Below are positions 39,590-42,500 of a stretch of 64,000 bases of DNA, one piece after another. Numbering within the stretch: position 1 is the first letter of the stretch; every line of letters starts with the position of its first letter. The position numbers and the translations under genes were made by a program. Under the pieces are notes generated by a model. It did no database searches. It saw only the letters and a program-made list of their open reading frames with translations, and was not told the origin of the DNA. Source of the stretch: Hypholoma sublateritium FD-334 SS-4 (lineage: Eukaryota > Basidiomycota > Agaricomycetes > Agaricales > Strophariaceae); the NCBI GenBank assembly GCA_000827495.1, contig KN817599.1, positions 1-64,000 of the forward strand, given 5' to 3'.

Positions 39590-42500
39590 CTACTCTCCCA
39601 GCCTGACACGCATGTACATCTCACTCGCTCTTCTCGCATCTGGGCTCTCCCTGAAAGATGCACTGCCATCGGTGCTGCCATGCACATATTCAAACGGAGA
39701 CGGTGGCTCCGGCGAGCAAGTGAAATCCTGCTTGACTCCATAATCATCGAAGGAGTATGCATCGCCTACATTCTTCGGGGGATGTAGCAGGATGGCATTC
39801 TGCAGTTCCATTGAGACATCATAATCGAAGTAATTCAATGGAGTCAAAACAAAGCTTAAAATTGTGGAGTTAAATGGATGCGAGCATAGCACGGTGGCGG
39901 AACCTACCTTGAAGTAGCGACAACTGCCTTGGTGTGTGGAGAATCTTCAGCTTGGGGCTGATGAACGAAAATGTGTCAACGAATCTATTAATAGATCATA
40001 TAGAAGTGACAACTCACGAGATGGTGGGTCCCCAAATTAATCCATGCCACCAGGTCGTGCTGTGTCAGGTTCTCGCCGTCGAAAAACTTGTGAAAGTCGA
40101 CCTTGGGCGCTCCAGGGAGGTTTTGGTTCCACATCGAGCTTGACGTGGGCTCGGTCTCCTTGCGTCGGGACACGGCTAGGTTGTACCGGGCCCAATTTGC
40201 GTTATGGAGCAGCCGCTTGCTGCCGACAACCGTCTATAATAGCAGCCCGGGGAATGTTCAGTATACTCCGTGGCAACTAAGGCGGTGGGGGAAGCAGAGC
40301 AAGGGAGTACCTCCACTACGTACGTTGTGTATGGCGTTATACCCGGGGTGAATTGCGTATCCTCTTGGGTAGCCCCACTTGTTTAGTTTATCCTGATTAA
40401 CAATGGCATATCCGCCCTGGAAGTTCTGCGGGTACTTCAACAAGGAGTCGTCCTCGGAAGTGATGTATTCCTTGGTGATTTTCTGCTGAATAACCTCCTG
40501 GCCCCAGTCGTCGTCCAGCCACGGGTGCACCACGCGCTCTTGATTTGTCGTTGTTTTCAAGAGGGAGTTTGCCGTTCCGGCGATATCGAAATCAACCCTT
40601 GAGTCACCATTGAAAAACAATTCTCTAGAGGGTTGAAGGAATGCAATGGACGCACTTATAGTTAATGACGTGATCATGAAGATTTCCCACTGGAAATAGA
40701 TAGTTGCGTCAAATGGCTGAAAGATATGTCGGAAGCAGTGCTAGATGACCTACTAGAGGTTTCATGAATCCTTGCGCCGTATCCTTCCTGCTCCGCATTC
40801 CAATACCCCCCTTGCATGTATCCAGATGCGGAGAGGCGTACTTCTATTGTCCCGTCAAGGTAGAACAGGTAATCAAACTGATTTAGATATTAGCATGCAA
40901 TGCAGCCCATATAAATAAAAACGGGCTTACCACTGTGATAGAGATAAATGGGCAGAGTTCGGTTAGTAAACTCGGTGATTCCTACACGAAAGTTACATAC
41001 AGTAATCGTAACTGCATGAGGGTATTAGCGAAAAAAAAACGATCGCACAGCCCGAGTACTCACTTGCCGACTGTGGTCGTACTCCTCACAGTCAAAACGT
41101 ATGACTTGGTAGCGCCAAACTCGCCCTCCTCGTACCCGAAGTGGCGCGTCAGCGGCTTCCCCGTGTCCTGCTCGAATATGCATATCGCGCGTTCAACGAC
41201 GACGTTGCCTAGCGAGGTGTGCGTGACTGCCGGGAGATAGACGGCCTCCTGAGGGCAGTCGTAGTGCGGGATCATGTTCCGCACGAGAGTGCCCATGCCA
41301 AAGTAGCGGTCCTGCCACGCAGTGGTAGCCTGCATCGGGTCGTTCCCGCCTAGCACGGACCGCCGTCCGAGTCAGAATAAGCCGCATATATGTACGGAGC
41401 GCACGGGCCTACGTACCGTACTGCGCCATTGCCTCCTGCGGAGCCAGCTGATAGACGATGCGTTCGCCGCGGAAGCGCACGTCCCAGAGGCTCAGGCCCA
41501 TGTCGCGGTCGAAGCCGAGGTACAGTGCCCAGCCCATCCAGCGCACGTGCTGTTGTGCGCGGTCAACGCGGTAGCGCAGCCCGGCGAACGAGACCGAGCG
41601 CGGGCCTGGACGGTCGTCGAGGTCGCGTGGGGGTCCGCGGCGCGTGCGCTCTGTCCACGACACGTCCGAGTCCGCATGCCGGTGCCTCACAACCGTGCCG
41701 TTGTTGAACGCCTCGATAAAGGCCTCGGTGCTGTCGAACACCTGCCCGTGGTAGATGTGCTACAGGTCGTTGAGCGCAGGGGACGCAGGGGGTGAAGGGG
41801 TGGGGACGTACCTTGAGGATTTTCCACTGCGAGGGGTCGGTGCCCGACGTGTCAAGGTATTGGTAGAAGTTCACGGGGAGGAGGAAAGAGCCCGCGCGGT
41901 TGCGCCGCCAGGACATCCACTGGCGACGAAAGCCACCGTCGAAGCTGAAGGGCCCGCTCATCCCACCGACGAGGGAATCATTTGCGAATCCACGTGCGGT
42001 GGCGCCGAACAGGACCTGAAATCGCGCGGTACGGGTTTACACCTGATTCAAGGAATACATATGACAATGACGACGTACCTGCAGAATGTCCGCAATGGGC
42101 GCGTTAAGCTCTGCGAGCACGACACCCATCTCATCGAGGTGAGAGACGCCGCGTGCGTTGAACGGGATCTCTCCATTGTGGTAGATCTCTGTCAACGGGC
42201 GCATGCTCGTCGCCGCACTGACTGGCAGCGGGCCCACGAGATAGTCTTTCACCACAGGCACCGCCCACCCGCCGTGGTGAATCGTCACTCGCGCGTGCCG
42301 CTCCGGGAGTGTCGCGGGCGACGGGCTTGCAAGGTATGCAATCGCCGCGTCTTTGGCCGGTTGGTACGCTTCGATGAGGAAAATGATGTTATCCGACGTC
42401 TTCGACGACCGCACTTCTGTAAGGTTGAGATCCCGTGCTGGGTCCTCAAGCCAGGCTCGAATATCGGCTAGCTCTGGGATTGTCAGTGACCTCCATGGGT

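Follow-up and report, generated by a model that had tools for sequence, protein, structure and literature searches.

Can two nucleotides lodged between two introns be a genuine exon of a gene coding for a working enzyme, and can they be so at the cofactor site itself? The question is raised by a copper amine oxidase gene of the agaric fungus Hypholoma sublateritium FD-334 SS-4, found in the window, that is, the whole 64,000-nucleotide stretch of DNA analysed here (contig KN817599.1, positions 1 to 64,000). The arrangement is real as sequence, and it is very probably real as biology. In the splice-path model the open frame stays intact over all 12 exons (Table 1), and the 11 introns are all of the GT-AG type, with sizes of 52-90 nt. 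The predicted protein carries the catalytic domain of the Copper amine oxidase family at residues 357-764 (Pfam PF01179, Cu_amine_oxid; E=3e-121, 405.6 bits against a cut-off of 27), and solved amine oxidases align across most of its length, the top one being 3pgb (residues 79-797, 2.6e-141), which we take to be an Aspergillus-type enzyme. The best protein matches among those listed come from Pholiota molesta (80%) and P. conissans (79%), which by themselves would point to an agaric close to Pholiota. The structural alignment runs through the cofactor motif, where the predicted NYDY pairs with GNYDY of 3pgb and 1n9e. In particular, N513, Y514, D515 and Y516 form the N-Y-D/E-Y motif, which is whole only when an 11-nt exon is included and in which Y514 is presumably the tyrosine that turns into the cofactor. 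In parallel, HDH (563-565) and HH (731-732) align with the HDH and HH of the solved enzymes, so that a His-X-His and a distant third histidine are in place; we take these to be the copper histidines. Exon 8, which codes for HDH, is short too.

Three intron sites, designated A, B and C, are packed into 13 coding nucleotides at the motif. The first-pass annotation had laid out these introns with the 11-nt exon and the dinucleotide TG between them, and on re-reading the sequence every one of its coordinates and splice signals turned out to be right. Both introns beside TG bear full signals, with GTATGT, CTAAC and CACAG in B and GTAAGC, CTAAT and AATCAG in C, and among the 11 introns of the gene the CTAAY motif occurs only in A, B and C. 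The placing of TG two codons past the cofactor tyrosine holds in the sense that two codons lie between, and needs amending as a count, Leu517 being the third codon after Y514 (Y514, D515, Y516, L517). When A, B and C are all spliced out in silico, the translation reads TVGNYDYLFDYLFYLDG, and the mature join is predicted to be GGCAA-TTACGATTACT-TG-TTTGATTAC.

Table 1. Features of the predicted copper amine oxidase gene (positions of the window) and of a second amine oxidase in the same genome
Feature	Position	Strand	Length	Description
Copper amine oxidase gene	42783-39590	minus		12 exons, 837 aa, ATG to TAG
Exon 4	41349-41064	minus		ends ..ACAGTCGGCAA / GGCAA; phase 2 within the Asn codon of NYDY
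Intron A	41063-41012	minus	52 nt	GTGAGT..CTAAT..ATGCAG; phase 2 in Asn
Exon 5	41011-41001	minus	11 nt	TTACGATTACT; carries the presumed cofactor Tyr codon TAC (41010-41008, Y514)
Intron B	41000-40933	minus	68 nt	GTATGT..TTTACTAAC..CACAG; phase 1 in the Leu codon
Exon 6	40932-40931	minus	2 nt	TG, bases 2 and 3 of Leu517 (T/TG)
Intron C	40930-40878	minus	53 nt	GTAAGC..TGCTAAT..AATCAG; phase 0 after the Leu codon
Exon 7	40877-40754	minus		begins TTTGATTACCTG; FDYLFYLDGTIEVRLSASGYMQGGYW..
Exon 8	40689-40656	minus	34 nt	codes for the presumed copper-binding HDH
Second, distant copper amine oxidase	L010 2608-3978 = contig C4 262607-263977			51-nt intron inside the cofactor motif, at NY/EY

How far the reading frame depends on TG was computed by enumerating splice paths of at most three introns (GT/GC-AG, GC donors included, 35-200 nt) from position 41090 to 40850. 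Fifty-two paths remain open and in frame into exon 7; two of the 52 keep NYDY, and a single one, through the 11-nt exon and TG, keeps NYDYLFDY, which bears out the earlier claim that only T plus TG yields the family sequence. The companion claims stood as well, since skipping TG gives NYDYF and a stop, and retention of either B or C ends in a stop each time. Retaining intron A likewise brings in a stop, skipping the 11-nt exon gives GNV and a stop, and dropping both mini-exons shifts the frame towards a later stop (TVGNLITCSTLTGQ before it). TG is required for the reading frame. From the sequence, the unique frame and the signals, which are read or computed directly, we infer the splicing itself, and TG would in all likelihood be a genuine and constitutive 2-nt exon in a copper amine oxidase gene that works.

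The role of chance was gauged with 20000 dinucleotide-shuffled versions of the 123 nt between the neighbouring exons. In 243 of them an AG-NN-GT arose that encodes L, I, M or V and leaves neither intron shorter than 45 nt; adding YAG and GTRNG left 9, and the strictest criteria, with a CTRAY branch site in each intron as well, left 1. This last count speaks against taking the locus for a decaying pseudogene or an assembly error in which the fit of TG would be coincidental. Such an account can point to the odd micro-anatomy and to the stretch being found once in the assembly, with no second copy for comparison, and it has to reckon with intact remaining exons, with GT-AG introns, with CTAAY in three successive introns at the cofactor site and with peptides of relatives that fit the same arrangement, all of which make it extremely unlikely. 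The search of the 46.1 Mb assembly (281 contigs) matched only this locus, and no second allele or close paralogue was found there. The second, distant copper amine oxidase of this genome has its motif intron at another place (NY/EY) and is therefore uninformative on sites B and C.

If the 2-nt exon is genuine, what do deposited proteins of relatives look like at this site? Homologues number 531 in total, and the counts given here rest on all 120 among the matches listed. By motif, 41 of the 120 are intact, with L (33), I (6) or M (2) in the place of Leu; these are no proof of a 2-nt exon, because some lineages have B only, C only or neither. The other 79 of the 120 are not intact, 8 of them through one residue alone (Q, R, C, Q, E, G, S and S in the place of Leu), and these eight may include true variants. 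NY(D/E)(Y/F) is kept with a damaged junction in 24 of the 120 and is missing altogether from 47, and the intact motif is found in none of the 10 closest homologues among the matches listed.

In at least 17 of the 120, Pholiota molesta and P. conissans among them, VGNYDY and the next residue are dropped, a lower bound because the expressions used for the dropped motif may miss variants. A gene finder that paired a donor at the Val codon with the intron C acceptor would produce just this join. It could also be read as the trace of a usual mRNA with one 194-nt intron, running from the poor donor GTCGGC at 41071 to the intron C acceptor, whose in-frame protein (..VRSTTTFDYLFYLDG) lacks VGNYDYL and so the cofactor tyrosine; the deposited proteins of this kind would then be real isoforms. 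The path enumeration confirms that such a path exists in the present gene and stays open, and its annotation in so many homologues adds to its appeal. Yet GTCGGC does not conform to GTRNG, the path comes free wherever an in-frame V-G goes with a phase-0 intron C, and the 194-nt intron removes the very residue that defines the enzyme. Moreover, the 120 listed include 8 long homologues of source lgn or jgi, and all 8, P0013 among them, keep the motif and read NYDYLF(D/E)Y, so that the 194-nt intron is a very unlikely description of the usual mRNA.

The six lgn homologues among these 8 have unbroken open reading frames of 818-846 codons, and their longest contigs measure 2964-5740 nt; judged by these contigs, some lgn sequences are probably cDNA, the clearest being those of about 3 kb. 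One of the six, P0013, shares 84-89% identity across almost its entire length with five Armillaria/Desarmillaria models in which the cofactor motif is absent or damaged. The reading of TG as a 2-nt exon, first put forward in the first-pass annotation, is thus supported by the sole path that gives the family sequence, by the peptides of relatives and by these 8 homologues, some of them cDNA-like.

Between an NYDY-type motif and FDY/FEY, 2-45 extra residues were caught in 17 proteins among the 120 listed. The models P0006 (Cyclocybe aegerita) and P0010 (Agrocybe pediades) read through the B donor and end in a way that fits YA(G)/TG/GT, a fit made without a control, and in P0058 (Fibroporia) the insert agrees with retention of intron C. 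The remaining 14 of the 17 inserts were not decodable, some beginning like a B donor yet being too short for an intron. With 79 of the 120 listed not intact, the copper amine oxidase family looks widely misannotated in Agaricomycetes, and a conserved 2-nt exon would explain the wrong public gene models at the cofactor site. A literature search made largely without subscription journals found no report of a misannotated cofactor site in these enzymes.

Whether the 2-nt exon is shared by relatives was read from short open frames (P0121-P0225, many of them on genomic contigs), whose peptides run into introns and expose intron bases; the intron DNA of relatives is here deduced from peptides rather than read as DNA. 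No genomic DNA of relatives was found among 3 pattern matches in viral contigs and 16 in genome contigs. The donor of intron A is marked by open frames ending in (V/A)GK in P0126, P0131, P0132, P0134, P0138, P0139, P0144, P0146 and P0147. Of these, P0126 has 91 residues, lies on a contig of 998 nt and shares 97% identity with exon 4, its final VGK falling where the exon 4 donor lies; it may come from this species, or from a sister of it, in a different sample. The acceptor of intron A is found without B or C in P0171 and P0172. These two and P0201, which contain SYDY, look like intron A acceptors without B or C, so that site A also varies between lineages. B occurs alone in P0121 (NYDY-C-ES..SV-FDY, fitting T/GTGAGT .. 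AG/TG TTT) and in P0149, and A and B without C in P0194 (SYDYRK..), from whose peptide the 11-nt exon can be derived in the same frame. C alone is present in P0123 and P0215, C donors are seen in P0219, P0223 and P0225 and, by eye, in P0218 (I/GTNAGY), and all three sites are empty in, for example, P0122 and P0156.

For B and C together, a script collected 16 fragments in which F(D/E)Y is preceded by K, Q or E; 8 of them have enough upstream peptide. The pattern YAG/TG/GTAWGY, which was sharpened after the peptides had been seen, fits 5 of these 8 informative fragments (P0152, P0182, P0184, P0188 and P0190), with an intron C of 50-56 nt. When the upstream residues are shuffled, the strict pattern averages 0.063 fits and none of 2000 shuffles reaches 5; the broader pattern YAGTN/GTRNGN also fits 5 of 8, where shuffling yields 0.53 on average and again none of 2000 at 5. 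Conservation of both introns, a matter that the first-pass annotation had referred to orthologues, thus finds a divided answer in these peptides: five of eight agree, P0151 does not fit, and P0123 and P0215 carry C only.

The fragments can be placed only roughly, as their coding stretches are short. The coding part of P0152 (41 residues) is nearest to the agarics Gymnopilus, Agrocybe and Flammula (85-88%), P0182 to Phanerochaete (95-98%) and P0184 to Rhodofomes, Fomitopsis and Phanerochaete sordida (90-93%), while P0190 is equally near to Phanerochaete sordida, Amylocystis and Irpex (90%) and P0188 is without placement. On our assumption of which orders these genera belong to, one fitting fragment is agaric-like, three are polypore-like and one is unplaced. 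Since the fitting fragments resemble both agarics and polypores, the 2-nt exon seems to be conserved.

How might so small an exon be spliced? Recognition across a 2-nt exon is implausible, as U1 sitting on the donor of C would overlap the AG that closes B. Simultaneous handling of B and C is hardly possible, since the acceptor of the one and the donor of the other are confined to the same few nucleotides. Being short and having complete signals, the two introns can each be recognised separately, and it is most likely that each would be recognised alone, via intron definition. As to the order, we infer that B and C would be removed in succession, not together, the first excision joining TG to one of its neighbours and so providing a normal exon for the second. 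From outside, two adjoining units excised consecutively look similar to a nested intron, or stwintron, and the locus might be described as such instead of as two introns around an exon. In a stwintron no exonic base is left between the units; here each unit has its own complete donor and acceptor, and this description is exceedingly improbable. Excision of the whole 123-nt unit (41000-40878) leads to NYDYF and a stop, which sets the locus outside the stwintrons. It likewise falls outside the recursive, zero-nucleotide splice sites, as two coding nucleotides separate AG from GT.

Several known systems resemble the predicted TG exon in part, to judge from the available portions of the sources. 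In plants, APC11 and VPS55 have 1-nt exons, and these share with TG a size of 1-2 nt, a place between two introns, the necessity for the frame and the oversight by annotation (PMC4674806; PMC8831610). Guo and Liu suggest stepwise intron definition for the 1-nt exon in APC11 of Arabidopsis (PMC4674806). Those cases concern plants and other genes and were tested by mutagenesis (APC11) or RT-PCR (PMC4674806; PMC8831610), whereas the predicted TG exon has 2 nt, is fungal and belongs to a catalytic-site codon. Nearer in kinship is the Agaricomycete Phlebia radiata, for which 2-nt exons are stated generally for predicted genes; in the available part of the paper the remark comes without a named gene with such an exon, and without conservation or catalytic context (PMC6540522). 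Microexons, the shortest of 6 bp, are described in P450 genes of Phanerochaete chrysosporium, which, like the present gene, come from a basidiomycete and combine numerous short introns with tiny exons (PMC1184071). The ratchet points of recursive splicing, juxtaposed sites inside long introns, have an acceptor followed at once by a donor, as in AG-TG-GT, but the present case differs by its two coding nucleotides and its short introns (PMC8605326). Stwintrons, in which an internal intron splits a donor, likewise involve two consecutive splicing reactions in one place, while here both introns are complete and TG stays (PMC9024468). The available parts of PMC11590231 and PMC3990503 held nothing decisive. 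A named conserved fungal 2-nt exon was not found in the literature search, with subscription journals mostly outside its reach, and absence by phrase search is weak because the Phlebia radiata paper words 2-nt exons differently (PMC6540522). All in all, exons of 1-2 nt are already known as a kind, and the TG exon of the copper amine oxidase is a new case that is apparently conserved.

What is new here, as far as the sequences of this gene and its relatives indicate, is the crowding of the sites A, B and C into so few coding nucleotides, with different subsets of them in relatives. Judging by the peptides, the TG exon arises from the separate sites B and C, which lie 2 nt apart and either of which occurs alone in other relatives. 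One may speculate, with rather more doubt than confidence, that B and C are old sites that coexisted for much of agaricomycete history, with the 2-nt exon present in at least two orders (agarics, polypores), and that the survival of B alone or C alone mimics the sliding of an intron by 2 nt. If this were true, apparent intron sliding would have its missing intermediate in the 2-nt exon. Neighbouring introns are usually expected to disappear together when cDNA recombines with the gene, and B-only and C-only genes could thus also be separate gains. Genes with B only, with C only and apparently with both bear on the origin of introns at nearly the same place.

For the enzyme, the loss of two bases would mean the loss of the frame and hence of the enzyme itself. 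A conserved 2-nt exon would therefore test cleanly how small an exon the spliceosome handles, with enzyme activity as the read-out. For the family, the number of listed homologues without an intact motif, or without any motif, means that surveys of active and inactive copper amine oxidases drawn from deposited proteins may mislead.
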